Source of the DNA: Deltaproteobacteria bacterium
GTDB lineage: Bacteria; Bdellovibrionota_B; Oligoflexia; Oligoflexales; CAIYRB01
Reading direction: 5' to 3'
Length of the DNA stretch: 55,727 nt
Assembly: GCA_016874735.1 (NCBI GenBank)
Contig: VGTI01000023.1
Location: 1-55,727, forward strand
Part shown: in pieces, positions 2,953 to 51,075 of the stretch
Layout of the letters: the number at the start of each line of letters is the position of its first letter
How positions within the stretch are numbered: the first letter of the stretch is position 1
Made by a program: the position numbers and the translations under genes
The notes under the pieces: model-generated
Database searches by the model: none
What the model was told of the DNA's origin: nothing
What the model saw: the letters and a program-made list of their open reading frames with translations, nothing else

Positions 2953-3660
2953 ATGAATGTTCGCAGTAAATTAATCGACACGATCGTCAACGATAAAATT
3001 ACCACGACCATGATTTGCGATGTCATGAACAAGACGGGGTACTTGCCCCAAATTAAGCCTATCAATCCCGGCTGCTTTGCTGCTGGCGAAGTAAGGTACG
3101 TGTTCGCCCATTCTGGCACTAATTATCACCTGCACCAACAGCTGGCTAATATCGAAGAGGATAAAATCATCTACGTCGACGCTATCGATTGTGATGAGCG
3201 AGCTGTCTTTGGTGACATAGTCACGCAATATTTGCTGGAACATCGTCGAGCTCGGGCCATCGTCACGAGTGGATATATGCGCGATGTGAACGATCTGATC
3301 CGCGAGAAGTGTTTAGTTTGGTGCCATGGCGGCACCCCAATTGGCTGCCATAACGTCAATGTCCCGGTGCCTCCGGCTACCGCCGCATTGGTTGAAGAAC
3401 GCCGCAAGCTGTTCGAGGAATCGATACTGATCTGCGATGACTCTGGCGTTGCTATGCTGACTCCCAATTGGATGACTCCGGACTTTGAGCAAAAGCTTGC
3501 CTTTATCGAGGCTCAAGAGGCCGTGTGGCACTACTGCGTCAATACTCTCAAATGGAGTACCTACGAGACGGTCGCTCTGAAGAAGTACTTCGACGTACCA
3601 GACATGATTCCGCAAGAGCTGATGGCTCAGCTCCGCGAATTTGATAGCAGCATCCGATAA
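2953..3660 (+). CDS. RraA-like aldolase/decarboxylase family protein
   Basis: A 235-residue protein of the RraA / 4-hydroxy-4-methyl-2-oxoglutarate aldolase fold. The signature GYMRDVNDL lies at about 107-115, where Arg110 and Asp111 match the substrate- and metal-binding pair of the HMG/CHA aldolases; a GCHNVNVPV strand follows. Enzymes of this family cleave pyruvate-containing aldols or decarboxylate oxaloacetate, and the fold was also recruited for RNase E inhibition. Keeping the R-D pair argues for an enzyme. It is translationally coupled to the DRE-TIM aldolase and follows the AEC carrier, suggesting a small organic-acid catabolic cassette. A hairpin follows the stop. Confidence 0.75.
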   Translation: MNVRSKLIDTIVNDKITTTMICDVMNKTGYLPQIKPINPGCFAAGEVRYVFAHSGTNYHLHQQLANIEEDKIIYVDAIDCDERAVFGDIVTQYLLEHRRARAIVTSGYMRDVNDLIREKCLVWCHGGTPIGCHNVNVPVPPATAALVEERRKLFEESILICDDSGVAMLTPNWMTPDFEQKLAFIEAQEAVWHYCVNTLKWSTYETVALKKYFDVPDMIPQELMAQLREFDSSIR

Positions 3661-3681
3661 GCCAGATGACTCAAGTATCAA

Positions 3682-3707
3682 TCTTAGCGGTGAGATAGCC
3701 GCTAAGA
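3682..3707 (+). terminator. Hairpin after the aldolase operon
   Basis: TCTTAGCGG and CCGCTAAGA form a perfect 9-bp stem around an 8-nt loop, 21 nt after the stop of the RraA-like gene. No T-tract follows, so termination efficiency is uncertain. Confidence 0.5.
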
Positions 3708-3911
3708 CTCAGTAAAATTCACCTGAGATTTTGTCGTAAATATTCAGGCACTTATCCTCAATTTGTATGCTGGGAAACTATACTGACAGCCCAGTTTTGT
3801 TGGTCTTTTTTCAGTCTCGCCGCTCAAAAGTATGCGGATCTGTTGACAAATACTTCAGCATCCACGTATCTTCAGTACATTGAAGAAATTTGTTCATGAT
3901 ACTGAAGATTT

Positions 3912-34763: not shown

Positions 34764-34766
34764 GTC

Positions 34767-36011
34767 ATGTCGCATACAACAGAAGTCAAAAGCGAGAGCA
34801 AAGAAAGCGTAACGTATCTCAGATCCCCCAAAGGCATTCGCGAGCAGTGTGCGAAGATCACTGACCGCGTGCTAACCGGAGAGTCGCCACACTTCAAACT
34901 CGAGCGTTCCAAGCTAGAGAAGGCGGCCGACCTGGTGGTGCAGGAGATGAGGTCGAATTATCCCGATCTAAGTATTCCGTATCACAGCCGGTGGCGCCAT
35001 TTTGGTGACGAGCGACTGAAGATGCTCAACGACAAGTTGGGCGCTTTAGATCCAGACGCTGCTGCCAAAAGTCGGATCGAATTGGCAATAGTCAGCGTAC
35101 TGCTCGACGCCGGCGCTGGTCCGACGTGGCGCTACACGGACCCGTTGACCGGTAAGGCGGTAGGGCGCTCCGAGGGACTCGCCCTGGCGAGCTTTGATAT
35201 GTTTATGGATGGCGGCTTTGCCAGTGATCCGGAAAATCCGCTGGTGGTCGATAATCCGACGTTGCGTAGCATTACCAAGCGTGATCTTGAAAAATACTTT
35301 CAGGTCACGCCACAGAATCGTCTGCTAGGTCTCGACGGACGTCTCAACTTATTGCATAAACTTGAGCACGCCGTGTCTGTAAACAAAAAGTACTTTGGTG
35401 ACATTGAACCACGTCTGGGTAATGCCTACGATTATTTAGTCACGCATGCAGGTAACAACAAGCTACCGGCACGCAAAGTATTGTCGGTTGTGTTAGAGGG
35501 CCTAGGCAATATCTGGCCAGGCCGCGCCTCGCTCGGTGGTGTGATGCTCGGTGACGTCTGGCACCATGCTGCTTTGCCGACCACAGATCACGGCCACGGT
35601 TTGGTGCCGTTTCATAAGCTATCGCAGTGGCTTACCTATTCTTTGGTTGAGCCTCTAGAAGACGCTGGTCTGGAGATCGGTGGTCTCGATGAGTTGACTG
35701 GTCTTGCCGAATACCGTAACGGCGGCTTATTGATCGATACTGGAGTCATCGGGATCAAAGACGCGGAGCTTGCGAGCAAGACGCACAAGGCCGACTCCGA
35801 GGTGATCATTGAGTGGCGCGCGCTCACGATTTCGCTACTCGATGAGCTTGCTGTTGTGATTAGAGACAAGCTTGGCAAGGCGGCTGCCGACTTACCGCTT
35901 GCTAAAATTATGCAGGGTGGTACTTGGAGTGCCGGACGTAAGTTGGCGGCTGGTTTGCGCGCTGACGCCGAGCCACCTATCCGGTTGGCTAGTGATGGGA
36001 CGGTGTTTTAG
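34767..36011 (+). CDS. URC4: DUF1688 protein, URC4 uracil catabolism
   Basis: A 414-residue soluble protein of the DUF1688 (URC4) family: the early YLRSPKGIREQC and SIPYHSRWRHF, the central GPTWRY-type motif, and the conserved GDVWHHAALP and LVPFHKLSQWLTYSL regions. Urc4p is needed with Urc1p and the uracil phosphoribosyltransferase for growth on uracil as nitrogen source in yeast; its chemistry is not established. It is coupled to URC1 by a 3-nt gap and precedes UPRT by about 50 nt. The start at ATG 34767 directly follows the URC1 stop. Confidence 0.85.
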   Translation: MSHTTEVKSESKESVTYLRSPKGIREQCAKITDRVLTGESPHFKLERSKLEKAADLVVQEMRSNYPDLSIPYHSRWRHFGDERLKMLNDKLGALDPDAAAKSRIELAIVSVLLDAGAGPTWRYTDPLTGKAVGRSEGLALASFDMFMDGGFASDPENPLVVDNPTLRSITKRDLEKYFQVTPQNRLLGLDGRLNLLHKLEHAVSVNKKYFGDIEPRLGNAYDYLVTHAGNNKLPARKVLSVVLEGLGNIWPGRASLGGVMLGDVWHHAALPTTDHGHGLVPFHKLSQWLTYSLVEPLEDAGLEIGGLDELTGLAEYRNGGLLIDTGVIGIKDAELASKTHKADSEVIIEWRALTISLLDELAVVIRDKLGKAAADLPLAKIMQGGTWSAGRKLAAGLRADAEPPIRLASDGTVF

Positions 36012-36065
36012 TCCGAACATATCTCATGGCCTATGTTACGGCTTATTTGGGAGCTGAGTGAATCT

Positions 36066-36716
36066 ATGACGCAATCAGCGGCAGCGGGTAGTAACGTTTT
36101 TGTCATCAAGCATCCGCTGGTCCAGCATAAGCTGACGATCATGCGCAAGAAGGAGACCAGCACCAGTAAGTTTAGACGCCTCGCTGGCGAGATTGCCATG
36201 TTACTCGCTTATGAGGTCACGCGCGATATGCCCATGACCCTGGCAGATATCGAGACACCGATAGCAAAGATGAGAGCGCCTGTACTTAAGGGCCAAGAGA
36301 TCGTCTTGGTGTCGATTCTGAGAGCAGGCAACGGTATTCTCGACGGCATGCTACGACTGATCCCATCGGCGCATGTCGGGCACATCGGACTTTACCGCGA
36401 GCCAAAGACGCAGGTGGCTGTGGAATACTATTTTAAGATGCCGCCCAATATGCCTGAGCGCGACGTCATCATCGTCGATCCGATGCTCGCCACTGGTCAC
36501 TCGGCCGTTGCGGCTATTGACCGTGTGAAAGAGCAAAAACCCAAGTCCATAAAATACGTCTGTTTACTCGCCGCCCCCGAGGGTGTGAGCTTCGTCCAAG
36601 AGCATCACCCCGATGTACCGATCTATACGGCCGTCATCGATGAGGGACTCAACGAAAAGGCTTATATCATCCCCGGTCTTGGTGACGCCGGTGACCGGAT
36701 GTTTGGAACGCTTTGA
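36066..36716 (+). CDS. upp: Uracil phosphoribosyltransferase
   Basis: From the ATG at 36066 (216 residues; an upstream ATG at 36033 lacks a ribosome site) this is a type I PRTase. It shows the [15 protein letters not shown] and [10 protein letters not shown] segments, the PRPP-binding [14 protein letters not shown], and the uracil-recognising C-terminus with [16 protein letters not shown]. It converts uracil and PRPP to UMP, the entry step of the URC route. All binding motifs are intact. It is downstream of URC4 and just before an RNA-modification gene. Confidence 0.9.
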
Positions 36717-36736
36717 GACGATGTGAGACTAGGCGC

Positions 36737-37417
36737 GTGACCGACTTTAGCCTTAGTGTTGCCTTTGCCAACGAGCACTTCGTTGCCGTCGATAAGCCGC
36801 CGGGATGGCTCAGCGTGCCCTCGCGTCTCGGGGAGTCCGACGCGAGGCCTTGTGTCGGCCGCGTGCTGGAGACGCAGCTAGGCGTGCGCCTATGGCCCGT
36901 GCACAGGCTCGACCTAGAGGTCACGGGGCTTTTATTATTTGCTAAAGATGCTCCTGCCCACAAGGTGGCCAATCTGTGGTTTGAAGAGCGCAAAGTCCAC
37001 AAGACCTACGAGGCCTTCACGACCGTTGGCGACGCGCTACCACTCAACCACCCACTCCAGTGGGAGTGCGTCATGATGCGCGGCAAAAAGCGCGCGTACC
37101 TAAGCCCTCACGGTAAGCCCTCGGTGACCACGGCGACACCACGCGCCCTGGTCACCTTACCGGACGGTCCGGCCCTCCTATGGGAACTTTCCCCCCACAC
37201 GGGCCGCCCCCATCAGCTTAGATTTGACCTGTCCCGCCACGGATTCCCCATCATCGGCGACCACCTCTATGGGTCGGATCGCTCATATTCTCTGGGCATT
37301 GCGCTGCGTTGCGTACGACTTGACCTGACTTCATGCCCACGGGCTGGGGATTTCGGCTTGCCCCGGGCATTGGCTGCGACTAGGTTGCGGGAGTCTCTAG
37401 GCCTCGAGGATAAGTGA
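36737..37417 (+). CDS. RluA-family pseudouridine synthase
   Basis: About 226 residues from the GTG at 36737, shorter than RluA/C/D because no S4 domain is present. It has AVDKPPGWLSVPSR, the catalytic HRLDLEVTGLLLF (with Asp), and a late HTGRPHQLRFDLSRHGFPIIGD. It should isomerise uridine in rRNA or tRNA; the site is unknown. It is read with the next methyltransferase gene, whose ATG overlaps its stop (TGATG), and probably shares the URC transcript, though its role is likely independent. Confidence 0.85.
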   Translation: MTDFSLSVAFANEHFVAVDKPPGWLSVPSRLGESDARPCVGRVLETQLGVRLWPVHRLDLEVTGLLLFAKDAPAHKVANLWFEERKVHKTYEAFTTVGDALPLNHPLQWECVMMRGKKRAYLSPHGKPSVTTATPRALVTLPDGPALLWELSPHTGRPHQLRFDLSRHGFPIIGDHLYGSDRSYSLGIALRCVRLDLTSCPRAGDFGLPRALAATRLRESLGLEDK

Positions 37418-38592
37418 TGACAGAGTCTGCCCCGCTACCAACAGTGCGCTTAACGCAACCCTTCAAGATTCAGCATCCATGGATCTTCGCGCGCGCAGTG
37501 GCTAAGCCCACGGAGCGTATTCCTCCTGGCACTTTGGTCGAGGTCTTGGGGGTCGACGGTAAATTCGTAGGCCGTGGTTTTTATAACGGGCACTCACGCA
37601 TCGGCGTCCGCCTGTTAACGACGGATCCGACGGAGCAGGTGGACGCTGGATTTTTTGCCGCAAGAATCGAGCGCGCTATCGAGTGGCGGCGTCAGCTAGG
37701 TCTCTTTGAGAAAACCACGGGCATGCGTCTCATTCACTCCGAGGGTGACGGACTCAGCGGCCTCATCGTTGACCTTTTGGGCGGTGTGCTGGCGATACAA
37801 TTCACGTCAGCGGGGATGTTTCGTCAGCGGGAGCTCATAAAATCCCTACTTCTCATTCATTTTCCTGAGGCGTGCGTTTACTGGTTTGCCGAGAAGCGTA
37901 TCCAAAAACAGGAGTCCTTTGACTGTTGGGATATGCCGGCTCCGGATCCCGTGGTGATCGAGGAGCAAGGCGTACGCTTTCACGTAGCTGTTGGCTCTAA
38001 ACACAAGACCGGCTTCTTTGCCGACCAGCGCGAGAACAGACTGCAGCTTGCGCGTCTATGCGCGGGCAAAGATGTACTCGACGTGTGTTGCCACACAGGT
38101 GGCTTCGGGCTTTATGCCAAAGTGATTGGCCAAGCCAAAAGTGTCATCGGAGTAGACTTGGACGAGGCCGAGGCGCTCACCACAGCGCGCGCCAATGCCA
38201 CGCTCAATGGTGTCGCTATCGACTTTATTGCCGCCGATGCCAGCGAGTATATGCGCGAGGCGGCCAAGCGCGGTGATCGCTTCGATGTCGTGATCCTAGA
38301 TCCCGCCAAACAAACGCGCTCGGCTGACAAGGTAGACGCAGCGTTGCATGAATATTGGCGTTTAAACCGCTTAGCCTTACCGCTAGTGAAACCTGGCGGC
38401 ATCTTGCTCACCTGCTCCTGCAGTGGTCTCATCAGTGAAGACGACTTTATCGCCACTATTAAAAATGCGGCGCGTGACGAGCAACGGGAAGCGCAAATCT
38501 TCCGTCTCAGTGGCGCTGCGCCGGATCACCCATTCCTGGCCCATGTCAGCGAGGGTAGGTATTTGAAGGCGGTTTGGGCCCGCATCCTGTGA
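37417..38592 (+). CDS. Class I SAM-dependent rRNA methyltransferase, RlmI-like
   Basis: A 391-residue protein with an N-terminal PUA-like domain (VGRGFYNGHSRIGVRLL), a linker with SEGDGLSGLIVD, and a Rossmann methyltransferase: FFADQRENR, the SAM loop DVCCHTGGFGLYA, VILDPAKQTRS and the CSCSG with a possible catalytic Cys. This layout matches the RlmI family that makes m5C in 23S rRNA. Which base it modifies here is not shown. The ATG lies within the TGATG overlap with the pseudouridine synthase gene. Confidence 0.85.
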   Translation: MTESAPLPTVRLTQPFKIQHPWIFARAVAKPTERIPPGTLVEVLGVDGKFVGRGFYNGHSRIGVRLLTTDPTEQVDAGFFAARIERAIEWRRQLGLFEKTTGMRLIHSEGDGLSGLIVDLLGGVLAIQFTSAGMFRQRELIKSLLLIHFPEACVYWFAEKRIQKQESFDCWDMPAPDPVVIEEQGVRFHVAVGSKHKTGFFADQRENRLQLARLCAGKDVLDVCCHTGGFGLYAKVIGQAKSVIGVDLDEAEALTTARANATLNGVAIDFIAADASEYMREAAKRGDRFDVVILDPAKQTRSADKVDAALHEYWRLNRLALPLVKPGGILLTCSCSGLISEDDFIATIKNAARDEQREAQIFRLSGAAPDHPFLAHVSEGRYLKAVWARIL

Positions 38593-38728
38593 TTGAGTCA
38601 GCTAACCGGCTGACCACAGGCGCGTTTCCTGTTTACTGCTTGACCGTTTTGGGAACCCTGATTTAAGGGCCACCCAGATGTGTCGAACCTAGAAAAGTGA
38701 TTCTAGTGCAACAGGACGTGAGGGTTTT

Positions 38729-39046
38729 ATGAAGACTTTATTGTGTCGAATCGTCGTATTGACCACAGTACTCATGGCAGGTTTAGGATCCGCCAGCCTA
38801 GCTATGGACGGGTATATCGTTTGCGGTACCTGCAAGTACTTTGACCCCGGAACCCGCTCTTGTCAGGACGCCCCTGATTGCTACGGCTACACGGAAGGCT
38901 ATGGCTACGACTGCGGCCACTGCGCGACTTGGTACGCAGATAACGAGCGCGGACACTGCGAAACCATTCCGGGCTGCGGCGGCGCCACATCGGCTAGCTG
39001 GCCTCAAGTGCTTTATGGGGAAAATCAAGCCACCGTGGCCCACTAA
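38729..39046 (+). CDS. Small exported Cys-rich protein with two CxxC-type repeats
   Basis: A 105-residue protein with a signal peptide (about 1-26, ending SASLA). The mature part has two similar units: VCGTCKYFDPGTRSCQDAPDC and DCGHCATWYADNERGHCETIPGC. Each carries CxxC, an aromatic, then two more cysteines, as in small zinc-ribbon-like or disulfide knots. Gly and Tyr fill the link. No family is recognised. A GAGGG at the right distance supports the ATG. Its pairing in the periplasm or outside remains open. Confidence 0.6.
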   Translation: MKTLLCRIVVLTTVLMAGLGSASLAMDGYIVCGTCKYFDPGTRSCQDAPDCYGYTEGYGYDCGHCATWYADNERGHCETIPGCGGATSASWPQVLYGENQATVAH

Positions 39047-39208
39047 GCGGCGCTCACGCGGCACGGTCCAGGCGGGACCGCCGTGGCGGATCAGCGACGG
39101 GATCAATCACTAGGTGATCGGCCCAAGATCTGGTAAAAATATCAGCCAGCTATGCGTATCTAATCGCTTCACTGAACTGACGTTTTGACACAAGCTCGCG
39201 AGGACCCC

Positions 39209-39982
39209 ATGGCGATCCCAACCCCCGACGCTCCAACTGGCGTCAATATGATCGAAGCCATCGCCGTTACCAAGGCCTTCAACGGCAACAATGTATTGGG
39301 ACCTGTTAGCGTCGGTTGTCCGCGGGGTAAGACCACCATCTTGCTCGGCCAAAGTGGTAGCGGTAAATCGACGCTGCTGCGTCTTTTTATGGGTCTAATT
39401 TGGCCGACTCAGGGTCACATCAAGATCGATGGTGTGATTTTGAGCCCGGCATCTGTTCAAGCGATACGCCGCAAGATCGGCTACGTCACCCAGGACGGTG
39501 GTTTATTCCCTCACCTGACGGCGCGGCAAAATATCCTACTGGCAGCGCGCTACTTCAAAGAGGAGCCCGCTGCAGAGGCGCGCCTACCGCACCTACTAGA
39601 GATTACAAAACTGACGGCCGATCTCATGGACCGCTTCCCATCGGAACTTTCGGGTGGTCAGAGGCAGCGCATTAGTCTCATACGCGCCCTAGTCCTCGAT
39701 GCCCCTGTTATTCTGCTCGATGAGCCGATGGGAGCCTTGGATCCTATGATCCGCGCTGACTTACAGACAGATCTAAAGGAAGCATTCACTATGCTCCACA
39801 AGACGGTCGTGATCGTCACCCACGATCTAGCCGAGGCGGCCTACCTTGGCGACCAGATTGTGATGATGAACGATGGCAAAATATTGCAGCAAGGTAGTTT
39901 TGCTGACCTCGTTAAGCATCCGACTGCTGCCTATGTGACGGACTTTATCGCGGCGCAGCGTCCGATCCCTTGGCCGACCTGA
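39209..39982 (+). CDS. ABC transporter ATP-binding subunit (orphan)
   Basis: About 257 residues from the ATG at 39209, after GAGGA. Walker A is GQSGSGKST, the signature is LSGGQRQR, and Walker B with catalytic Glu is VILLDEP, with a switch His in IVTHDLAEA. The ATPase resembles those of the glycine-betaine/osmoprotectant and related uptake systems (TTGA-less core of about 240 residues). No permease or binding protein gene flanks it, so its partner must lie elsewhere. Confidence 0.8.
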   Translation: MAIPTPDAPTGVNMIEAIAVTKAFNGNNVLGPVSVGCPRGKTTILLGQSGSGKSTLLRLFMGLIWPTQGHIKIDGVILSPASVQAIRRKIGYVTQDGGLFPHLTARQNILLAARYFKEEPAAEARLPHLLEITKLTADLMDRFPSELSGGQRQRISLIRALVLDAPVILLDEPMGALDPMIRADLQTDLKEAFTMLHKTVVIVTHDLAEAAYLGDQIVMMNDGKILQQGSFADLVKHPTAAYVTDFIAAQRPIPWPT

Positions 39983-40226
39983 TGCGGTAGATAATCGTTT
40001 AGCTTCTTCTTCGTTTTTTTTTGAGTATCGCCATGAAATATTCCAATCAATCAGAAGTCATAATCAAGAGTCATGATCGCGCCACATCTAAAGCCATGTG
40101 CGCATAGCAAGCCAGTTATCCTGCTTAGCGCACAAAGCCGCCATCTGATAATCACACTTTGTTTTGTTGCGACGGCGCAGCGACCATAATCTCCATGAAT
40201 TCCCGAGGGACCGAACTCCTTGGGGA
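39983..40226. other. Gene-free interval
   Basis: Between the ABC ATPase and the zinc-ribbon gene I see no ORF of note. There is a 10-base T-run at about 40013-40022 without a strong stem in front. Confidence 0.4.
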
Positions 40227-40493
40227 CTAGGTGGAGCTGGATACCTGGGACGTGACAGTTAGCATGCCTCGGAATACAGAGGTGAATTTTTTGATCACGC
40301 GTTTGATGGTACTTACAACATCACCAAAGCGGAAGAACGGCTGTGATACAAGGTGGTTTCTACAATTTAGACAGTGGTCTGACCCTGTGAGAGAATTTAT
40401 CACTGGGCCGCCACCGCAGCGACGGCAGCGACTATGCACGCCGGGAATGGTTCTCCGGAGATACTCGTGATGAAGGTAGGGATTGAATGACAT
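40227..40493 (-). CDS. Small zinc-ribbon-like protein
   Basis: From the ATG at 40493 the product has 88 residues. A strong AGAGGAG lies 5 nt before this ATG, which is why I prefer it over a longer TTG start at 40535. Two CxxC pairs, CRRC and CLNC, are 15 residues apart and could bind one zinc. The C-terminal part is basic (STIKRVIKKFTSVFRG). No family is recognised. It lies in an otherwise empty stretch, so it may be a genuine but lineage-specific gene. Confidence 0.45.
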   Translation of the reverse strand: MSFNPYLHHEYLRRTIPGVHSRCRRCGGGPVINSLTGSDHCLNCRNHLVSQPFFRFGDVVSTIKRVIKKFTSVFRGMLTVTSQVSSST

Positions 40494-40961
40494 GGGCACT
40501 CCTCTGAAGAGCGACATCTTGTTTAATGCTCTCAAAAGGGAGTAAGGCAGGAAACGTGCCAGACCAGATGTTTCGCGGTTGATCTTGCTTTTTTGTTCTT
40601 ATTTAAAGAGGCTTATCGCACTTGGTGGCAATCTCAATTTTTACGGCAGACTAAGCATGTCGCCAGGATTTTGGTAACAAATTATGACCACCCTGAGCAC
40701 TGTCGCGCGACAACAAGCTGCAAATAGCGGCAAGGCTGATTCTGAATACCCAGCAAATTCAAGTCATATCGGTAATTTGCACTGTGATCAGTAAATTGAA
40801 CGATGCAAGTAAAGAATTTGTGCGTGGTGGTAACAAAATTCACATCACTAGCAAGGCTTGCTTGTCACGGCCTCAGCTTAGGTAAAAAACCGGAAAACCA
40901 AGCCTTCGACAGGTGCCGCGGTACTTGTTTTGAGCCGGTCAGGAGTGTTCACTTAAAACGC
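40494..40961. other. Gene-free interval
   Basis: Nothing clear is seen between the zinc-ribbon gene start and the end of the AbiEi-like gene. The stretch is more AT-rich than its flanks. Confidence 0.4.
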
Positions 40962-41576
40962 TTAGCGTACCCGCGCTAAAAGCTCCTCTAACGCGGCGAT
41001 TACCAGTGATCGCCGCGCTGGTGATGATATCGATCTTGTGTACATCTCGATGCGCTTAAACTTGAAACTTTTTGGGATCTCGATTTCTGGTAGCGCGCGG
41101 AAAGCGCGGCTTTTTGCTGGCCGAAAGTAGAAGAAATCCACTAAGGCTTTTTCCGGTGTGGCCATTTGTGCAGGTCCATCACCAAAAGATTCGAAACCAC
41201 AAAAAAATGGTGGAGCCACCTGATGGACAGCATAGATGCCTACTGGAGTTTTGATAGTTCTGGTCTTGGCAGTTGAGATGACATGGATTGTTGTAGGAAT
41301 CTGCTCGATCATACCGTGGTGGAAGAGAGCACTCTGAAGCGACAGATAACTCGGCGATGGATCGGTCAAGTATGGGTGCAAAATCCAGGGCGAAATTTGG
41401 TTCGGTGTCAGCCACATGCCGCGTTGTAGTCGCGTGAGATGCCCGGTCGCCGCCAGGCGCCCGAGCATCTTGCTGGCCGACGCTGGTGATACGCCCAAGT
41501 GTGCGGCGACGTCGTTGGTCTTCAGCACCGGGGTCTCCAGGGTACGAAGTTTAGCAAGTGCTAGATTTAGGTTCAT
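40962..41576 (-). CDS. AbiEi-like antitoxin, winged-HTH protein
   Basis: A 204-residue protein from the ATG at 41576. The N-terminal winged helix (LKTNDVAAHLGVSPASASKMLGRLAATG) and the following YLSLQSALFHHGMIEQ and ATPEKALVDFFYF match the AbiEi family of type IV antitoxins, which bind promoter repeats and block AbiEii. It is translated second, overlapping the toxin stop by ATGA, the reverse of the usual antitoxin-first order. Both together may act in phage defence or plasmid-like maintenance. Confidence 0.8.
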   Translation of the reverse strand: MNLNLALAKLRTLETPVLKTNDVAAHLGVSPASASKMLGRLAATGHLTRLQRGMWLTPNQISPWILHPYLTDPSPSYLSLQSALFHHGMIEQIPTTIHVISTAKTRTIKTPVGIYAVHQVAPPFFCGFESFGDGPAQMATPEKALVDFFYFRPAKSRAFRALPEIEIPKSFKFKRIEMYTRSISSPARRSLVIAALEELLARVR

Positions 41577-42319
41577 GCTGAGATACTCTGTACCTTGGCG
41601 ACAACTTGATGCAGCAAAGTTTCCCAAACCTCCCCACTTCCGTAGTAGTCTTGGGCTTCAGCTGTTAAAAACTCGACGACCTGTCCCCTAAATTGATCAA
41701 AGTCGACACTTATGGCTGCATCAATAGCCTTTTCAATCAAAGACTTTTGCGCCTTCACAACCAAATTCGGGTTACGGTTAAACAGATGCGCCAGATCAAA
41801 AATATCTCTAGCCTGAGTTTCTGGCCGGCCGGCAAGGGCTTCAATCTTTTGCGTGACGGCGTAACTTGCTTTGTAGTGCGAGATAAAGCTGGGAGTAAGC
41901 CGATATTCAGCAAGTATCATAGGGTCTACCGACTCAAATACCGTACCTTCGCGATCAATACCGCGCCTTGAAAACTCGATCTTGGTCGGAATATCGAGCC
42001 CATGGGCATGTATCATGACCTTCCATCTTTGTACGGTGTCTGTCTGCTTGGGTGCTGAGTGAGCGATGATGTGGATCTTACGCGTAGCCAGGGAATTGCG
42101 CAGTGAGTGGCTGCTTAGTATCTTGTCCACACGCTTTTTCAGCGGCTCTCTACCTATAGTTGCCACGTCAAAATCAATGTCTTCAGAGTATCGGTTACTA
42201 CCCATAAAGAAACGAAGATTGCAGCCACCCTTAAGTACAACGAGCGATTTGTCCTGTGTAGTTAGGAACGACTTGATGAAGAGCAGATGGAACAGCTCAA
42301 TGTCAGCACGTATGCTCAT
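41573..42319 (-). CDS. AbiEii-like nucleotidyltransferase toxin
   Basis: A 248-residue protein of the AbiEii/DUF1814 nucleotidyltransferase family. The key motif VLKGGCNLRFFMGSNRYSEDIDFDV carries the Gly, Arg and Asp residues of the minimal NTase site, and a TPSFISHYKASYAVTQKIEALAGRP segment with a conserved Lys follows, then ARDIFDLAHLF. Known AbiEii/MenT enzymes add nucleotides to RNA substrates and stop growth. The catalytic Asp pair is intact. It is the first gene of the pair; a palindrome lies just upstream. Confidence 0.8.
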   Translation of the reverse strand: MSIRADIELFHLLFIKSFLTTQDKSLVVLKGGCNLRFFMGSNRYSEDIDFDVATIGREPLKKRVDKILSSHSLRNSLATRKIHIIAHSAPKQTDTVQRWKVMIHAHGLDIPTKIEFSRRGIDREGTVFESVDPMILAEYRLTPSFISHYKASYAVTQKIEALAGRPETQARDIFDLAHLFNRNPNLVVKAQKSLIEKAIDAAISVDFDQFRGQVVEFLTAEAQDYYGSGEVWETLLHQVVAKVQSISA

Positions 42320-42341
42320 ATCTTATATATTCCATTGAATC

Positions 42342-42353
42342 GACATATATGTC
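42342..42353. promoter_or_regulatory. Perfect 12-bp palindrome in the AbiE promoter region
   Basis: GACATATATGTC is a perfect palindrome 23 nt upstream of the AbiEii ATG. On the minus strand it overlaps a TTGACA that could be a -35 box, with an AATATA at 18-nt spacing. AbiEi proteins repress their own promoters at inverted repeats, so this is a fair operator candidate. Confidence 0.45.
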
Positions 42354-42395
42354 AATTGGAAGGAATATTAAAAATGCGGCGGTTGATCAGACCAT

Positions 42396-42546
42396 AACTG
42401 ACCCACTTAATTGTTGGTGTTGCCTCAGAACCCCCAGCATTTACTAATGAATCACTCGACAATCCAGGCAACCTCCGACGCTAGCCTGTAACAGTCCGGG
42501 ACGATTATCAAAACTTTCATCGACCAACAATTAAGTGGATCAGCTT
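42396..42546. mobile_element. 151-bp MITE-like element with 23-24-bp terminal inverted repeats
   Basis: The left end 42396-42418 and right end 42523-42546 are inverted repeats with only about two mismatches; the inner 16 bp CCACTTAATTGTTGGT is perfect. The 100 or so bases between have no ORF. Size and ends suit a non-autonomous (MITE) element or a heavily deleted IS, sitting between the AbiE genes and bfr. I could not identify the parent IS family or a target-site duplication. Confidence 0.55.
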
Positions 42547-42643
42547 TATCGTTGAACTAATCCCGCAGGTGAGCGATTGTTTTTGTCAACGGTAGGTTGC
42601 AAGCGCCTCCGACTAGCTCTTAGAAGAATTGAGAGGTGACACG

Positions 42644-43120
42644 ATGAAAGGTGATTCCAAAGTCATTGATGCCCTTAACGAGATCCTGACCGGGGAGCTC
42701 ACGGCCATCAATCAGTACTTTCTCCATGCGCGTATGGCTAAAAACTGGGGCTACGAGCGGATCGCAGCCAAAGTGTGGGCTGAGTCCATCGACGAGATGA
42801 AGCACGCCCAGGCTCTGACCGACCGTATTCTCTTCCTTGAGGGCATCCCCAATCTGCAGAAGTTGGGCAAGCTCAACATCGGTGAGACGATTGAGGAGCA
42901 GTTTCAGGCTGACCTGGCGCTCGAGTTCCAGGCAATGACCAACCTCAAGGCTGCCATCAAGGTATGCTTTGAAGCCGCCGACCACACTACCAGGGAGCTT
43001 TTTGAGCACATCCTGGCTGACGAAGAGGCTCATGTGGACTGGCTCGAGGCTCAACTCGGTCTGATTAAAGACCTGGGTCGCACGGCGTACCTAGGCGAGC
43101 AGATCAAAAAGGGCGAGTAA
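42644..43120 (+). CDS. bfr: Bacterioferritin
   Basis: From the ATG at 42644 (GAGAGGTG upstream) the protein has 158 residues, as E. coli Bfr. All ferroxidase ligands are at the canonical numbers: Glu18, Glu51, His54, Glu94, Glu127 and His130, and the heme ligand Met52 is present. It forms 24-mer cages that oxidise and store iron and bind heme at the dimer interface. The bfd gene is convergent just downstream, with stops 3 nt apart. Confidence 0.95.
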
Positions 43121-43123
43121 GCC

Positions 43124-43342
43124 TCACTTTTTGCTCTGGCCTACATCTCCCGCAGCGCCGCCACCGGAGCCACCGTGGCGCTGCCGGGATTTTTGGACCA
43201 TTTCTTTCAGCTGACAGATGCACGAGCCGCAGTCGCTACCCGCCTGACATGACGACATCACGTCCCGGAGACAGGTTGCCCCGTTTTCGAGTAAAGCATT
43301 GATTTTCTTGTCTGAAACACCCTTGCACAGACACACGACCAT
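43124..43342 (-). CDS. bfd: Bacterioferritin-associated ferredoxin
   Basis: A 72-residue protein with the [2Fe-2S] cysteines Cys4, Cys6, Cys38 and Cys41 exactly as in Bfd. Bfd binds bacterioferritin at the heme and gives electrons to release stored iron when iron is low. A Gly-rich tail of about 20 residues extends the C-terminus. Convergent with bfr; its own promoter region holds a Fur-box-like site 68 nt upstream, as expected for an iron-starvation gene. Confidence 0.9.
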   Translation of the reverse strand: MVVCLCKGVSDKKINALLENGATCLRDVMSSCQAGSDCGSCICQLKEMVQKSRQRHGGSGGGAAGDVGQSKK

Positions 43343-43409
43343 AGGTGACTCCGCTGCGAAGACTTAAGGCCTAAGACCTACCTATCTCCTTATCGGTCTA
43401 TTTTATAAT

Positions 43410-43428
43410 AAAACTGAGAATCATTTTC
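43410..43428. promoter_or_regulatory. Fur-box-like site between bfd and the ferrochelatase-like gene
   Basis: The 19-mer AAAACTGAGAATCATTTTC matches the classical Fur consensus GATAATGATAATCATTATC at 14 of 19 positions, including GA-AATCATT. It sits in the gap between divergent bfd and the exported ferrochelatase-like gene and could control either or both. Confidence 0.65.
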
Positions 43429-43588
43429 AATACGATGTACATTTATTTGCTGCAAACACCCCAGATTTATCACTAAGCATCCGTAATCAATGACTTATTT
43501 TTAGCTCACCCCAAACCTTCTCATTATCCCGAATGCCGGTTATGCTAGTGGAAACCATCATTTCGCATACAAGTCAGAAGGGGCTCTT

Positions 43589-44827
43589 ATGAGAACTCTG
43601 TCATTTGGACTCAGGCGTCGGGCCATGCTCGTTGGTATGGCAGCGCTCTTGGGCACTACCGGACTGATCGGCTGCAAAACCACTAACAATGCCGGCCAAA
43701 GCGGCGTCGCCTCGGCTACAGATGGGGACGAAACGATCGCTGTCATGCTGGCCTCACACGGCGACATCGACTCCATCAGTGAGCTCGAATCTTACATCAA
43801 GGTATCGTTTCAGAAGAATGTAGGCATACCGCTGCCCTACTGGGTGCGCCCGGCGATCAGTGATCCCGCATACAAATTGTCTGTTGGTGAAGTTAGATCT
43901 CAGTACGAGATCATTGGCGCCACCAAGTACCGCGAAAACTCGCAAAAACAAATTGAGGCTTTAGCCACAGCTCTCAAGGAAGCGGGTATCAAAGCCAAGA
44001 CTTACTACGGCTTCAACTTCACCACGCCGTTCATCGCAGACACCATGGAGCAAATCAAGAAGGACGGCATCAAGAAAGTCATCGTCTTTAACCAGGGCGC
44101 ACAATGCTCTTGGGCCTCACAAGGCGAGAATATGGAAGACGTTCGTGACTACTTGATGGAGCATCCAGAATTTGATGCCGACGTGATCGGCTACCGTGAG
44201 TACTCTAATGACACCAGATTTCGCGACCTATTGCACGACGTCATCATACGCGACGTCAAAGACAAATTTGGTGACAAACCCTCTAGCCTTACCTGCGTTC
44301 TCATGGCGTCCCACGGGCTACCAACCCGCATGACTAATGACGGCGACCCAGCGATCAAGCAGATGAAAGATGCCTTTGACTATGTCGCTGCCAAGGGTAA
44401 GCCCTACCGCTTTTATCACGGATTCCTTAACGATGACTTTATCCCCGGTGCTACCTGGGCGCAGCCCGAGGCTTCTGAGGCGGCCAAGAAAATGCGCAGC
44501 GACGGTTGCCGCAATATTTTGATGGATTCTCGCCTGTCTTTTACAGTCAACCACAGAGCCACCAAGTTTGACCTTGATACCGAGGCACGCCAAATTTTCG
44601 AGACCAAAGACCCCAAGCAAAATTGGCAAGCATCACTCACGTGGACCAAGCCTAAAGTGGAACTCGCTAATCAGTTTGATGGCGATGCAGGCCTTGCGAA
44701 GTTATTCACTGAGCTCACTAAAGAAACGTTGGCGCGTAAAGGTGATCTGGAGATCATTAAAGAACGTGGCAAACCAGTCTATCCTAAACCGCCTGTCAAA
44801 GAGTGGTGCCAATCAAAAAGACTCTGA
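43589..44827 (+). CDS. Exported ferrochelatase-like lipoprotein
   Basis: A 412-residue protein with a twin-Arg leader (LRRRAMLVGMA) and lipobox LIGCK. The mature part follows ferrochelatase: VLMASHGLPTRM carries the active-site His (about 242) of the SAHGLP motif, followed by DGDPAIKQM, and the C-terminal FTVNHRATKFDLDTEA parallels FVSDHIETLYEID. In the latter the His is kept (about 322) but the catalytic Glu is Ala (about 324). Normal ferrochelatases insert iron into protoporphyrin in the cytoplasm or at the inner membrane. Export, a nearby Fur-box-like site and iron-storage neighbours suggest heme or metal-tetrapyrrole handling outside the cytoplasm. The alignment is by eye. Confidence 0.7.
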   Translation: MRTLSFGLRRRAMLVGMAALLGTTGLIGCKTTNNAGQSGVASATDGDETIAVMLASHGDIDSISELESYIKVSFQKNVGIPLPYWVRPAISDPAYKLSVGEVRSQYEIIGATKYRENSQKQIEALATALKEAGIKAKTYYGFNFTTPFIADTMEQIKKDGIKKVIVFNQGAQCSWASQGENMEDVRDYLMEHPEFDADVIGYREYSNDTRFRDLLHDVIIRDVKDKFGDKPSSLTCVLMASHGLPTRMTNDGDPAIKQMKDAFDYVAAKGKPYRFYHGFLNDDFIPGATWAQPEASEAAKKMRSDGCRNILMDSRLSFTVNHRATKFDLDTEARQIFETKDPKQNWQASLTWTKPKVELANQFDGDAGLAKLFTELTKETLARKGDLEIIKERGKPVYPKPPVKEWCQSKRL

Positions 44828-44848
44828 TTATAAACTAAATTTATTTAG

Positions 44849-44877
44849 ACGCGGCCACTCGGGCCGCGTTTTTTTTT
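44849..44877 (+). terminator. Rho-independent terminator
   Basis: ACGCGGCC (44849-44856) pairs with GGCCGCGT (44862-44869), followed by an uninterrupted T-run (44868-44877). It ends the ferrochelatase-like transcript and, read on the other strand, lies at the end of cobS. Confidence 0.9.
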
Positions 44878-45649
44878 ACAAGTTAGCCGTAGCAAGAATC
44901 GTCAAATAAAAGACAACTTCCGTCACCTGTTGCACAGCCCCGCAGCAGTCGCCGGTGTAGCCACCGATCCAACGTTTGAAAAACCGTCCCATATGCCACG
45001 TCATAAGCCCCATGAGCGGCAACGGAAGCAGAAACTGCCACCGACCACTCGCTGCCACGGGCAACAAACCAAAGGCCAGTGCTAATAGCATTTGGCCAAA
45101 AGTTTGGTTGTGAAAGCTAGGCTTCAAATCCACACGTGCGGCATCCTCGCGCGCATTGATAAGAAAATGGGACATCGCTACTGGCATCGCGCGGCTCAAT
45201 GCGTGGGCTGTTACTAGAGTCCATACCATCTCGTGATCGCTCACATGAGACAGCGCCTGATATTTAAGTCCGAGAATGATTACCATACCAACAGCGCCGA
45301 AGGCCCCTATACGCGAGTCCTTCATAATCATGAGGATCTTGTCCTTGCTCCAGCCGCCACCAAAGCCGTCGCACACATCGGCAAAACCGTCCTCGTGAAA
45401 GGCTCCAGTCGCATAAATGGTGGCAGCCATGCTGAGCATCACTGCCACATCAATTGGCAGGACCACTGCAGTAGCGCGGTAGACTATGGCAGCGATCGCG
45501 CCGACCACCATGCCTACGAGGGGAAAATATGGTGCAAGAAGATTTAGGCTAGGATTGACGTCAGTCAAGCGACGAGGCATGCGCAGGCGCGTTAAATACA
45601 TCGTCGCAGCTGCGAGATATACTAATTGGCGATGGAGCCAAGTCACCAT
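44876..45649 (-). CDS. cobS: Adenosylcobinamide-GDP ribazoletransferase
   Basis: A 257-residue membrane protein with about six helices and the CobS motifs GAFHEDGFADVCDGFGGG (with metal-binding Asp residues) and DSRIGAFGAVGM; it ends with GGYTGDCCGAVQQVTEV. It joins alpha-ribazole to adenosylcobinamide-GDP at the inner membrane, the last assembly step of B12. Its ATG overlaps the cobT stop (TGATG), so both are made together. No other cob genes are in view, consistent with salvage or a dispersed pathway. Confidence 0.9.
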   Translation of the reverse strand: MVTWLHRQLVYLAAATMYLTRLRMPRRLTDVNPSLNLLAPYFPLVGMVVGAIAAIVYRATAVVLPIDVAVMLSMAATIYATGAFHEDGFADVCDGFGGGWSKDKILMIMKDSRIGAFGAVGMVIILGLKYQALSHVSDHEMVWTLVTAHALSRAMPVAMSHFLINAREDAARVDLKPSFHNQTFGQMLLALAFGLLPVAASGRWQFLLPLPLMGLMTWHMGRFFKRWIGGYTGDCCGAVQQVTEVVFYLTILATANL

Positions 45650-46713
45650 CAGTCTTGCTGGCTCCCCGCATCTTTTGCCGCGCGTGATACCTTCGCAATC
45701 TGCGCTTCATCAAAGGTTGCCATCTCACGCACCAGTGCCGTGGCCATCCGCAGGAGCGGCAAGGCAACCGCACATCCGGTGCCCTCACCGAGACGCATGG
45801 ATAGCTGCAATAGAGCCTTCACGCCTAGATGCTCCAAAGCCAGGGCATGCCCGGGCTCTGCCGAGAGATGGGAGAAAAAGCTGTAGTCAACAAGATGCGG
45901 ATCGATGGCGTGTGCCACTAAGAACGCTGCCGTGGAACAGTACCCATCTACGAGTTGCGCCATGCGTAGCTCACTTGCGCGAAGCATCGCGCCACACATC
46001 ATGGCCAGCTCAAAGCCACCAAAATAAGCAATCACGTCTTCGGGCTTACTCAGCTTGGGAGCACGGGCCATAGCCGTCTCCAGCACCGCGATCTTGTGCT
46101 GCAAGCCCCGATCATCAAGACCAGTCCCCGGCCCCACACATTGGCGTAACGGAACACCACACAGTTGACTCATGATCACAGCGGCTGCTGAACTATTGGC
46201 GATGCCCATCTCGCCGAAGCCTATCGTATTGCACCCCTGCTCATAGACCTCATTAACCAATGTGCGCCCATGTAGCATAGCCGTCTCAAGCTGAGCCTTG
46301 CTCATCGCTGGGCCGTGGAGAAAGTTTTGCGTGCCACTACCGACGCGGGCGCTGATCAGACCTGAGTGGGACGCAAGCTTGGCATTGACGCCAGCATCGA
46401 CCACCAAAAGTTCTGCCTGACTCTGGCGCGCCAGCACATTGATGGCCGCACCTCCGCGCAAAAAATTGGTCACCATAGACGCCGTGACACTTTGCGGATA
46501 AGCGCTGACCCCCTCCGCTGCAATGCCGTGGTCAGCAGCAAAGACAATGATGGTCGGGCGCAGTACCTCAGGCTTCAACGTATTGTGGATGAAGGCAAGA
46601 CGTCGCGCTATGTCTTCGATCACTCCAAGAGAACCCGCCGGCATCGTCTTCTCTGCCAGTAAAGTGTCGCATGCATGCAGGTTTGGTAGCGAGTGACCGG
46701 GTGTCTTACTCAT
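45649..46713 (-). CDS. cobT: Nicotinate-nucleotide-dimethylbenzimidazole phosphoribosyltransferase
   Basis: About 354 residues from the ATG at 46713, within the end of terC. CobT marks are PAGSLGVIEDIARRL, the DHGIAAEGVSAYPQSVT segment, GAAINVLA, GFGEMGIANSSAAA and a late conserved Glu in LRLGEGTGCAVALPLL, the catalytic base. It makes alpha-ribazole phosphate from nicotinate mononucleotide and a lower-ligand base such as DMB. It feeds CobS. I see no B12 riboswitch ahead because terC directly precedes and overlaps it. Confidence 0.9.
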   Translation of the reverse strand: MSKTPGHSLPNLHACDTLLAEKTMPAGSLGVIEDIARRLAFIHNTLKPEVLRPTIIVFAADHGIAAEGVSAYPQSVTASMVTNFLRGGAAINVLARQSQAELLVVDAGVNAKLASHSGLISARVGSGTQNFLHGPAMSKAQLETAMLHGRTLVNEVYEQGCNTIGFGEMGIANSSAAAVIMSQLCGVPLRQCVGPGTGLDDRGLQHKIAVLETAMARAPKLSKPEDVIAYFGGFELAMMCGAMLRASELRMAQLVDGYCSTAAFLVAHAIDPHLVDYSFFSHLSAEPGHALALEHLGVKALLQLSMRLGEGTGCAVALPLLRMATALVREMATFDEAQIAKVSRAAKDAGSQQD

Positions 46714-47719
46714 TAGGTTGACGCGCCGTAGCCAATAATGACGCGACAATCCCACCAGCCAAGAAACCACCTATAATGCTCAGCGACCATCCCATCGACA
46801 GTTCCTCACCAATGACCTTGCTGATCCAGGTCATCTTCGATCCCACAAATACGAGAATCAAAGCGATGGCATATTTGAGGTAATGAAATTTATCCACCAC
46901 GCCAGCGAGCAGGAAGTAGAGTGAGCGTAGTCCGAGGATTGCGAAGATGTTCGACGTGTAAACAATCAGCGGCTCTCTGGTGATGCCAAAGATGGCCGGT
47001 ACGGAATCGATCGCAAAAACGATGTCTGACACCTCGATAAAGATCAGGCCGAGTAGTAGCGGGGTGGCATAAATTCTGCCATCTATCCGTTTAAAAAAGC
47101 TCTGGCCATGGATCTCCGGAGTGACAGGCAGCACACGCTGGACCCACTTGATGATCGGATTATCTGCCGGATTTGGATCCTCATCCTGACTGAAGATCAT
47201 CTTGATCCCCGTGAAAATCAGGAACACACCGACCAACATCATCACCCAGTGAAACTTCAGCAAAGCGGCACCGAGGGCGATGAAAATCCCCCTAAATACT
47301 AGGGCGCCCATAATGCCAAAAAAGAGGACACGATGCTGATAGATGGACGGTACCGCAAAGAAAGAAAAGACCACGACAAACACAAAAATGTTGTCCACGG
47401 CCAACGACTTTTCGATGATGAATCCAGTTAAGAACTCAAGAGCCACGCGGCTCGCCGCCGTATCCGGCGTCATACCCGTGGCTGCGGCCATGGCCGCATC
47501 GCTAGAAAACTTATGATGCACATAGGCATAAAGCCCCGCATTGAACAGCAGTGCTAAGCTCACCCACACCACACTCCACCCGGCCGATTCGCGGATGGAT
47601 ACGGCTCGCGCATGGCGATGGAAGACGCCAAGGTCGATCACCAGCAGCATCAGCACAAAGGCAGTGAAGGCTAGGTAAAACCACCAATAGTCAGCGAATG
47701 GAAAAATTACTGTCGGCAC
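46706..47719 (-). CDS. TerC/Alx-family membrane protein
   Basis: A 337-residue protein with about nine helices and the TerC motifs FLTGFIIEKSLAVDNIFVF and FIEVSDIVFAIDSVPAIFG, each with acidic residues within membrane helices. Relatives (Alx, MntP-linked, TerC) export or balance manganese or affect tellurite resistance and metallation of exported proteins. The stop lies inside the start of cobT, so expression with the B12 genes is likely. No yybP-ykoY-like leader is visible in the 93-bp gap upstream. Confidence 0.85.
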   Translation of the reverse strand: MPTVIFPFADYWWFYLAFTAFVLMLLVIDLGVFHRHARAVSIRESAGWSVVWVSLALLFNAGLYAYVHHKFSSDAAMAAATGMTPDTAASRVALEFLTGFIIEKSLAVDNIFVFVVVFSFFAVPSIYQHRVLFFGIMGALVFRGIFIALGAALLKFHWVMMLVGVFLIFTGIKMIFSQDEDPNPADNPIIKWVQRVLPVTPEIHGQSFFKRIDGRIYATPLLLGLIFIEVSDIVFAIDSVPAIFGITREPLIVYTSNIFAILGLRSLYFLLAGVVDKFHYLKYAIALILVFVGSKMTWISKVIGEELSMGWSLSIIGGFLAGGIVASLLATARQPNE

Positions 47720-47812
47720 CGTCTAGTCCTAAGGCATATATTGAATGGTCACTGAGTATACCATCGAGGATCGGAGGCGTATGCACCGCGACGCCCGTCA
47801 CCTGAGGTCCAA

Positions 47813-49309
47813 ATGACAAAGAGTGTACTAGTTCTTTTAGGTAATCAATTGTTTCCAAAATCTGCCTTGGCAGCATTTCGGAATCAACCCGTTTATATGG
47901 CCGAGGATCTCGGACTTTGCACCTATTTTCGTTTCCATAAGGCTAAGATTGCCCTGTTCCTCGCAGCCATGAGGCAGCGCCGGGACGAGCTGCGCGAAGA
48001 CGTCTTTACCGTTTATTATCAGGAGCTTGGAGACGACAACCAAAGCTACGAAGCGCGTCTCATCAAGCTCCTGAAGGCCGAGTCCCTGAAGCAAGTCGAT
48101 CTGTTTGAGATTGAGGACCGCCCCTTTGCCGCCTGCCTCACTGCGGCCCTCAAGGCGGCTGGCATCGCCATTAAGTGGCACGAGTCGCCTATGTTTCTCA
48201 CCGCGCGGGATGATTTTAAGGCTTATCTGAAGGGCACTAAAAAGCCCTTCATGAAGACCTTTTACGAGTGGCAAAGGCGACGCCTCGACATCCTGATGAC
48301 CACTGACGGGGACCCGGTCGGCGGTCGTTGGAGCTTTGATACGGAAAATCGCAAGCGCCTCCCCAAGGGCATGCGGCTGCCAGACGTACCGACAAGTAAG
48401 CCCAGTAAGACCACCCAAGAGGTCCTTACTTTGGTCGGCAAGCGTTTTAGTGATCATCCGGGTTCACTCAAGCATTTTTCTCACACCGTGAGTCGCGCCG
48501 AGGCCCTCAGGTGGCTACGCGAGTTTCTGGACGAGAAGCTGACGGATTTTGGTCCTTACGAGGATGCCATCACCAAATCGTCGGCCTTCGTCTTTCATAG
48601 CGTTCTCAGCCCAGCCTTGAATCTTGGTCTGATCACACCGCGCGAGGTGATTGACGCCACGCTCAAGGCCTTTAAGACCGCACGCAACCCAAGCCTCATC
48701 GCCTCAGTCGAGGGCTTTGTTCGTCAGATCATAGGCTGGCGGGAATTTATTCGGGGCATCGACCAAAACTTCGGCCCCAAACAGGAGACGACTAATTTTT
48801 TTGGTCACGAGCGCCGTCTCACTGCGAGTTGGTATGATGGTTCGACGGGCATTCCCATACTCGACGATTCTATCAAAAAAGTCCTGCAGTTTGGCTATAC
48901 CCACCATATCGAACGTTTGATGATTCTGAGCAATCTGATGCTACTCAGCGAAATTCACCCCCACGACGTCTACAAGTGGTTCATGGAGATGTTTGTCGAC
49001 TCGAGTGACTGGGTGATGGGTCCTAACGTGTACGGTATGGGTCAGCATTCCGACGGTGGTATCTTTGCGACCAAACCCTATATTTGTGGCTCGAATTATC
49101 TGCTCAAGATGAGCGATTACGAGAGCGGCGACTGGACAGATATCGTCGACGGACTGTACTGGCGGTTTATCGATCGCAAGAGAGAGTTTTACCTGCGTAA
49201 CCCGCGCACCTCGATGGCGGTCCGGCAATACGATAAGATCGCGCCGGCGCGCCGTGCTAAACTAGCTGCCGCGGCCGACAACTTCTTGGCGACGCACACC
49301 ACATTGTAA
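47813..49309 (+). CDS. Cryptochrome/photolyase-related protein of the FeS-BCP (PhrB) group lacking Fe-S cysteines
   Basis: A 498-residue protein of the deoxyribodipyrimidine photolyase-related group. The N-terminal part is an alpha/beta cofactor domain (LVLLGNQLFP, then HESPMF), the rest the FAD-binding helical domain with GWREFIRGI, HIERLMILSN and FVDSSDWVMGPNVYGMGQHSDGG. In PhrB-type enzymes MSDYC-x-x-C and a later Cys bind a [4Fe-4S] cluster; here the same place reads MSDYESGDWTDIVDGLYW, with none of the three cysteines. One Cys at about 425 is nearby. It may still repair (6-4) photoproducts or act as a blue-light sensor. Confidence 0.8.
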   Translation: MTKSVLVLLGNQLFPKSALAAFRNQPVYMAEDLGLCTYFRFHKAKIALFLAAMRQRRDELREDVFTVYYQELGDDNQSYEARLIKLLKAESLKQVDLFEIEDRPFAACLTAALKAAGIAIKWHESPMFLTARDDFKAYLKGTKKPFMKTFYEWQRRRLDILMTTDGDPVGGRWSFDTENRKRLPKGMRLPDVPTSKPSKTTQEVLTLVGKRFSDHPGSLKHFSHTVSRAEALRWLREFLDEKLTDFGPYEDAITKSSAFVFHSVLSPALNLGLITPREVIDATLKAFKTARNPSLIASVEGFVRQIIGWREFIRGIDQNFGPKQETTNFFGHERRLTASWYDGSTGIPILDDSIKKVLQFGYTHHIERLMILSNLMLLSEIHPHDVYKWFMEMFVDSSDWVMGPNVYGMGQHSDGGIFATKPYICGSNYLLKMSDYESGDWTDIVDGLYWRFIDRKREFYLRNPRTSMAVRQYDKIAPARRAKLAAAADNFLATHTTL

Positions 49310-49314
49310 AGGAC

Positions 49315-51075
49315 TTACTGACAGCAGGTGAGCGTCGTTGCGATCCCCTTAATGAAGCCCACACTGGCAATATACTCACTGAGATCGCATTGCCCTTTGA
49401 GGGCGAAGGGATCCCAGTCACCTGGTATGAGCGAGAGCCGATCGTCTTTTTTCTCAAAGTTTACCTCGCGGCAAGTCGTGCCGAGACTCACGCTTGACCT
49501 AGCACAAAGTGCGCCCGCAACGCTGTATCGACCATTGACACGGTTTTGCGCCAGCCCGACGAGATAATGGTCACCCGCACACGCGAGGCGCCCGGCTCCA
49601 GTATCAGGTACGACAACCACATTGGTTGCACTACGGCTTGGTCCGTAGTCAGAGCACAGCACTCCGTGATTGGCGCGACTACCGCTACGCTGCGCCGAAC
49701 TTAGACCAACGATACGCTCGCCCTCGCGACAACGGGCCTTAAATGCTGATGGCATCCAGTCACTACGGTCCGTGGATAGCACAGAATCAAAATCACTGAA
49801 TATTAGCGATGTGAAATGATGCTGCGGCACGCTGTCCCATCCCGGCTCAACTCCAGGGCCAAGGCGTGGCGTCATAATGCTACGTAGCTGCTCCGTGCGC
49901 CAATCCGCTAGAGGCTCCTGCCAGCTCTCGTGCAGGAGACCAAACAGCTCCTCCTCGCCCGAGGCTTTAGGCCCCGGATTCAGCGCCCAATAAGCAAAAT
50001 CTAGATCCTGATCCCGCAGATAATTGACAAAGTTTGTAAACCATCGTTGGCTGCTGGCATTGTAAGCCTCACCAAATTCACTGACCCATACGGGCGCCGT
50101 AAAGTGTCGTGCCGGTGACACGACGTAACCCCACTCGCGGCTCACTTGAGCATGAAGCTGCGCCTCTTCCATGTCACCGTACTTCTGACCGAGCGTGCTG
50201 GGTGAAATGAATCCATAATTATGGGCCGCGTAGATCAACCTATCTGGCAACGGCAACCGGATCGGATCGCTCTGCACACCCTGAAGATGCTCGCGTGGGA
50301 AATTGATACCCTCGACTATGACTAGGAGGTTTGGGTTCTCGGCAAGTACGCGAGCTCCGGCCCGCTCAGCTGCGACGCGCCAATCATTTCCACCCTTAGC
50401 CCAGTTGGGGACGCTAGGTAAGAGGCGCCCCTTGAAGTTAGCAATACGGACCTCGTTGCGCAGATCGGCGGCGATGACCATGGAATTACCTGCGTAGCGT
50501 CTGGCCATCATCGCCCAATCATCAAGCCAAGCATCCTCAGTGTAATCATGCGTATACCAAAGACCGTCGCTATCAAAATTACAACACCACATGGGGTGCG
50601 TCGTGTGGTTGTTGATGATGACGTAGATCCCAGCCTCACTCAGTGCCGTGACGACGCGATCGTAAATCATGAGTGGAGTCAGAGAAGCCATTTCAGGGTT
50701 AGCTGCCACCGCTGCACTGTCTACTTCTCTTGCATGTAGCATGAGATTGGCAAACGGCAGCCGGACCGAATTAAACCCCAGTTTTTTGATCTGCTCGATG
50801 ATGGTACCGAGCGGAGCCTTGTCGAGTCCTCCCACCACCAGACTTGTATCACTGGCGCCGTACCAGTTGACCGAGGCTAGCTTCAGCCGCTTGCCGCGCG
50901 CATCCACAATAAAGCGTCCCAAAGTCCGAAGGGGCAACTCTCGCGGCTCCGCATCAAGCAGCTGCACCGCATGTCTGCTACGATCGGCAATGGATGCCAT
51001 CTTTAGCGGCGGTGTGCTGGCGGAACACGCTGCAATTAAGGCGGCAACGGAAGACGTCATCAGGAGTTGGCGCAT
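49315..51075 (-). CDS. GH5-family glycoside hydrolase lipoprotein
   Basis: A 586-residue protein with a lipobox LIAACSAS. A GH5 (cellulase-type) barrel spans about 60-400: LGFNSVRLPFANLML, INNHTTHPMWCC, the acid/base Glu in ADLRNEVR and the nucleophile Glu in WVSEFGEAY, both intact. About 170 extra residues follow, rich in Cys and Ser, that may be an unknown binding domain. The enzyme should cut beta-1,4-glucans or similar polymers at the cell surface. It is convergent with the photolyase gene and divergent from the second cyclase pair. Confidence 0.85.
   Translation of the reverse strand: MRQLLMTSSVAALIAACSASTPPLKMASIADRSRHAVQLLDAEPRELPLRTLGRFIVDARGKRLKLASVNWYGASDTSLVVGGLDKAPLGTIIEQIKKLGFNSVRLPFANLMLHAREVDSAAVAANPEMASLTPLMIYDRVVTALSEAGIYVIINNHTTHPMWCCNFDSDGLWYTHDYTEDAWLDDWAMMARRYAGNSMVIAADLRNEVRIANFKGRLLPSVPNWAKGGNDWRVAAERAGARVLAENPNLLVIVEGINFPREHLQGVQSDPIRLPLPDRLIYAAHNYGFISPSTLGQKYGDMEEAQLHAQVSREWGYVVSPARHFTAPVWVSEFGEAYNASSQRWFTNFVNYLRDQDLDFAYWALNPGPKASGEEELFGLLHESWQEPLADWRTEQLRSIMTPRLGPGVEPGWDSVPQHHFTSLIFSDFDSVLSTDRSDWMPSAFKARCREGERIVGLSSAQRSGSRANHGVLCSDYGPSRSATNVVVVPDTGAGRLACAGDHYLVGLAQNRVNGRYSVAGALCARSSVSLGTTCREVNFEKKDDRLSLIPGDWDPFALKGQCDLSEYIASVGFIKGIATTLTCCQ

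Follow-up and report, generated by a model that had tools for sequence, protein, structure and literature searches.

A PhrB-type photolyase of the published cluster-free kind, probably a (6-4) photolyase, encoded in a contig of a Deltaproteobacteria bacterium

Is a PhrB-like photolyase without the cysteines of the [4Fe-4S] cluster an exception within a cluster-defined group, or an ordinary member of a cluster-free kind? The question is raised by a gene in the window, by which we mean the whole stretch of 55,727 nucleotides analysed here (contig VGTI01000023.1, assembly GCA_016874735.1, Deltaproteobacteria bacterium). The open reading frame is complete, starts with ATG and encodes a full-length photolyase of the PhrB/CryB type (Table 1). 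Pfam searches of the 498-aa protein gave matches to DPRP (E 2.9e-63) and FAD_binding_7 (E 1.4e-08), and no NCBIfam model scored above its cut-off. The top sequence matches in the PDB were all prokaryotic (6-4) photolyases, the closest being SePhrB of Synechococcus elongatus (8ijy, E 1.4e-87), followed by CryB (3zxs, E 1.2e-85); further matches were a Caulobacter entry (9hnk) and PhrB of Agrobacterium fabrum (4dja). An AlphaFold model of the window protein (mean pLDDT 86.8, pTM 0.88, weakest at residues 410-415) superimposed on PhrB with TM-scores of 0.91/0.89 and an rmsd of 2.8 Å, at 33% identity in the structural alignment. With an N-terminal DPRP domain, a photolyase FAD domain and a PhrB-like fold, the protein has the domain composition of a prokaryotic (6-4) photolyase of the PhrB/CryB type.

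The original prediction of a PhrB-like photolyase lacking the iron-sulfur cysteines was borne out by the alignment with PhrB (4dja), in which 0/4 ligands were retained. I349 stands in place of C350 and E437 in place of C438, C441 is aligned with a gap, and D443 occupies the C454 column, a pairing that hinges on gap placement in a region without any cysteine. Between the MSDY and LYW motifs, 10 residues are missing relative to PhrB. Since the equivalent of C350, approximately 90 residues upstream, is also gone, the change extends beyond the shortened loop. Relocation of the cysteines to another part of the protein, for which an alignment check had been proposed, was ruled out, as the whole protein contains only C36, C108 and C425, none of them at the cluster position. 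With all four ligands absent, binding of a cluster in the known way is impossible, and the protein falls outside the FeS-BCP subtype, which has four cluster-ligating cysteines. PhrB and the window protein are alike in fold, active-site His, lesion-binding Tyr and W390, whereas the four Cys, the [4Fe-4S] cluster, the 10 additional loop residues and W342 are found only in PhrB, and I349/E437/D443, W340-Y341 and a Leu at the PhrB E37 column near the antenna site only in the window protein. SePhrB also differs from the window protein: it carries all four cysteines and has 8-HDF as its antenna.

Table 1. Positions in the window of the photolyase gene and of the residues discussed in the text.
Feature	Position	Strand	Basis
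Probable cluster-free prokaryotic (6-4) photolyase gene, 498 aa	47813..49309	+	ORF, Pfam, PDB matches, AlphaFold
W340-Y341, at the position of PhrB Y341-W342	48830..48835	+	alignment; PMC4619345
I349 codon, at PhrB cluster ligand C350; mostly Pro in the cluster-free clade	48857..48859	+	alignment
H364/H365, equivalent to PhrB H365/H366 (H366 the catalytic His); invariant in both clades	48902..48907	+	alignment; PMC4619345
Y423 to Y429; Y423 equivalent to PhrB Y424, Y429 to PhrB Y430; both invariant in both clades	49079..49099	+	alignment; PMC4619345
Shortened loop MSDYESGDWTDIVDGLYW, residues 433-450; PhrB has C438, C441, C454 and 10 more residues	49109..49162	+	alignment

Cluster-free proteins of this type are already on record. 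Among 110 prokaryotic (6-4) photolyases divided into seven subgroups, the four cysteines are found in all but subgroup M, which has 20 members from multiple lineages, including PromaPL of Prochlorococcus, and it has been proposed that the FeS-BCPs form a subtype within a wider group (PMC9178010). PromaPL is described in that paper as a cluster-free (6-4) photolyase. Most picocyanobacterial Phr2 proteins are also without the cysteines and have been argued to be likely CPD photolyases (PMC9426592), and the absence of the cysteines from ~7% of 464 homologues was noted in 2015 (PMC4619345). A well-known cluster-free clade, which the original prediction had itself named as speaking against it, is thus found in the literature. 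The window protein resembles subgroup M with PromaPL, and picocyanobacterial Phr2, in being a two-domain PhrB-type photolyase from which all four cluster cysteines are missing. This feature is diagnostic of subgroup M (PMC9178010), to which the window protein, judged by it, most likely belongs. Its host appears to differ from that of PromaPL, the relatives of the protein and the tree pointing to Bdellovibrionota.

A scan of representative genomes returned at least 592 relatives among the 595 pattern matches listed. The best 80 of these relatives were kept for comparison and were mostly from Pelagibacteraceae, with others from SAR86, other Alphaproteobacteria, Bdellovibrionota and a PVC bacterium. 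Within the class of the window, a DPRP gene was present in 24 of 58 genomes, and a phylum-level search gave the same result. The alignment comprised 112 distinct rows, 96 with none of the cluster cysteines and 16 with all four, in a sample drawn mostly with the window protein as query and therefore biased towards the cluster-free side; the FeS rows were obtained from same-class family searches, plasmid records and the PDB. Intermediates with one to three cluster cysteines were absent (0/112 rows), all 96 cluster-free rows were gapped at columns C441 and Y443, and all close relatives found were cluster-free. In an unrooted maximum-likelihood tree of 47 rows, one branch with a support of 100/100 parts the cluster-free from the FeS rows, and each of 200 bootstrap trees (100%) accounted for the presence or absence of the cluster cysteines with one change. 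The pattern suggests that the cluster-free form goes back to a single split marked by a uniform deletion, not to scattered losses. Because the kind is already published and every sampled member of it is without the cluster site, the window gene represents an ordinary case of a known cluster-free kind, and the idea of an unusual member of a cluster-defined group was not upheld.

In the shortened loop, G439, W441, D446 and G447 are invariant throughout the cluster-free alignment. A Tyr is aligned with window Y449 (49157-49159) in 94 of the 96 cluster-free rows, whereas the homologues without an equivalent of Tyr460 have been reported to be those without the cysteines (PMC4619345); the discrepancy may stem from how the gaps were placed near the deletion. 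Phage records contained no match. A short contig filed as viral (IMGVR_UViG_3300006481_000154) encodes a cluster-free photolyase (687-2180, 47% identical) and may be misfiled bacterial DNA. An 83-kb viral contig (IMGVR_UViG_3300016474_001053) carries a DPRP photolyase without the cluster cysteines (3001-4416, 35% identical), ~1 kb from an ORF whose translation, inspected by eye, resembles a dihydrofolate reductase fused to thymidylate synthase, as arranged in eukaryotes; the contig may come from a eukaryote or from a large DNA virus of eukaryotes.

Mutations in PhrB have identified H366 as the proton donor, Y424 as a lesion-binding residue and Y430 as required for efficient repair, and W390 and W342 are its electron-transfer residues (PMC4619345). 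In the window protein the equivalents H365, Y423, Y429 and W389 are intact, the active site of the PhrB/CryB type (His366, Tyr424/Tyr430) thus being present, and the columns of PhrB H365, L370, M410 and W401 are likewise invariant across the aligned rows. The equivalents of PhrB D179 and D254, which we take to be the Mg2+-related aspartates, are conserved in the window protein and throughout the alignment. Repair by PromaPL and its stimulation by Mg2+ were reportedly measured by Ma et al. in 2019 (FEBS J 286:1765), a study to which PMC9178010 refers. From its sequence, the window photolyase is probably catalytically active, and there is good reason to regard the gene product as a (6-4) photolyase that is driven by light and belongs to the cluster-free prokaryotic clade, most likely to subgroup M (PromaPL type).

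The PhrB W342 column contains Tyr in 93 of the 96 cluster-free rows, and position 341 contains Trp in 87. A clade-wide swap is seen at the Trp342 position, where FeS members have Y/F-W and most cluster-free members W-Y. A further clade-specific change in the electron-transfer region replaces PhrB Y399 by Ser. In the window protein, W342 of PhrB has Tyr341 as its counterpart, immediately preceded by a Trp, so the photoreduction path may differ or be displaced by one position. Replacement of W342 by Tyr and of Y399 by Ser would also suit a CPD photolyase, or an enzyme repairing both lesions, with the loss of the cluster tied to a change of substrate. The suggestion that the cluster-free Phr2 of most picocyanobacteria is a CPD photolyase (PMC9426592) points the same way, as does one SAR11 genome (G065, completeness not established) without another FAD_binding_7 gene. 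We nevertheless consider such a substrate improbable, since the residues equivalent to PhrB H366, Y424 and Y430, found by mutation to be important for (6-4) repair or lesion binding, are invariant, PromaPL is a (6-4) photolyase according to PMC9178010, and the host and most relatives checked have another, better-matching photolyase gene. In the host genome, two more genes of photolyase type have FAD domains that are nearly full (C11, C48) and a third match is partial (C6), so that CPD repair is probably covered elsewhere.

The neighbouring genes encode TerC, a CobT-type phosphoribosyltransferase, CobS, a ferrochelatase-family protein, a GH5 cellulase and a 7TMR adenylate/guanylate cyclase, and no functional tie between them and the photolyase was seen. 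A cryptochrome-like light sensor without repair activity has a parallel in CryB of the same superfamily, which also regulates gene expression (PMC9178010), but with the repair residues intact and neighbours (TerC, cobalamin genes, GH5 cellulase) that point to no signalling link, this role is very unlikely. The shortened loop is found likewise in two sister genes, L002 (87%) and L004 (82%). A second DPRP gene in the assembly, 87% identical to the window gene, is located on contig C62 (L134). This contig is colinear with the window at ~33866-50940, most of it being 75-79% identical at the nucleotide level, and for that reason probably represents a sister species in the bin; a host paralogue arisen by duplication was not accepted, as the colinearity fits a sister-species contig. 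Comparison with the C62 copy (L002) gave a dN/dS of 0.087/1.65, or ~0.05, with synonymous sites near saturation, and the window gene is under purifying selection. The same loop in the sister genes and the low dN/dS together indicate that the shortened loop is not an error. A defect of this individual gene (frameshift, sequencing or assembly error, or pseudogene) found no support, the loop being abnormal only relative to FeS members, and is refuted by the 96 rows with the same loop architecture, the full-length frames in sister genomes and the dN/dS, leaving it a negligible probability.

As a light-driven (6-4) photolyase, the window protein would bind FAD, with an occupancy that is predicted here, and take up the (6-4) photoproduct, which would be repaired by an electron from photo-excited FADH- with H365 as the proton donor. 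The C-terminal roof subdomain, stapled by the cluster in PhrB, would be held by the 10-residue-shorter loop in a putative packing where the conserved G439, W441, D446 and G447 could form a structural staple in place of the cluster, which would then not be needed. It is conceivable, if rather doubtful, that the cluster-free clade combines a rearranged photoreduction path (W340-Y341) with a re-packed roof subdomain that replaces the need for the cluster, and that the cluster and the electron path were altered jointly in one event at the clade's base.

PhrB mutants in the cluster ligands were insoluble or not expressed (PMC4619345), which indicates that PhrB needs its cluster for folding. The idea of probing the cluster's role with a cluster-free member is sound in principle, but PromaPL already serves that end. 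As the PhrB ligand mutants are insoluble or unexpressed (PMC4619345), natural cluster-free relatives are the practical route to the role of the cluster, and the window gene adds another, from a non-cyanobacterial lineage, whereas the type was described in cyanobacteria.
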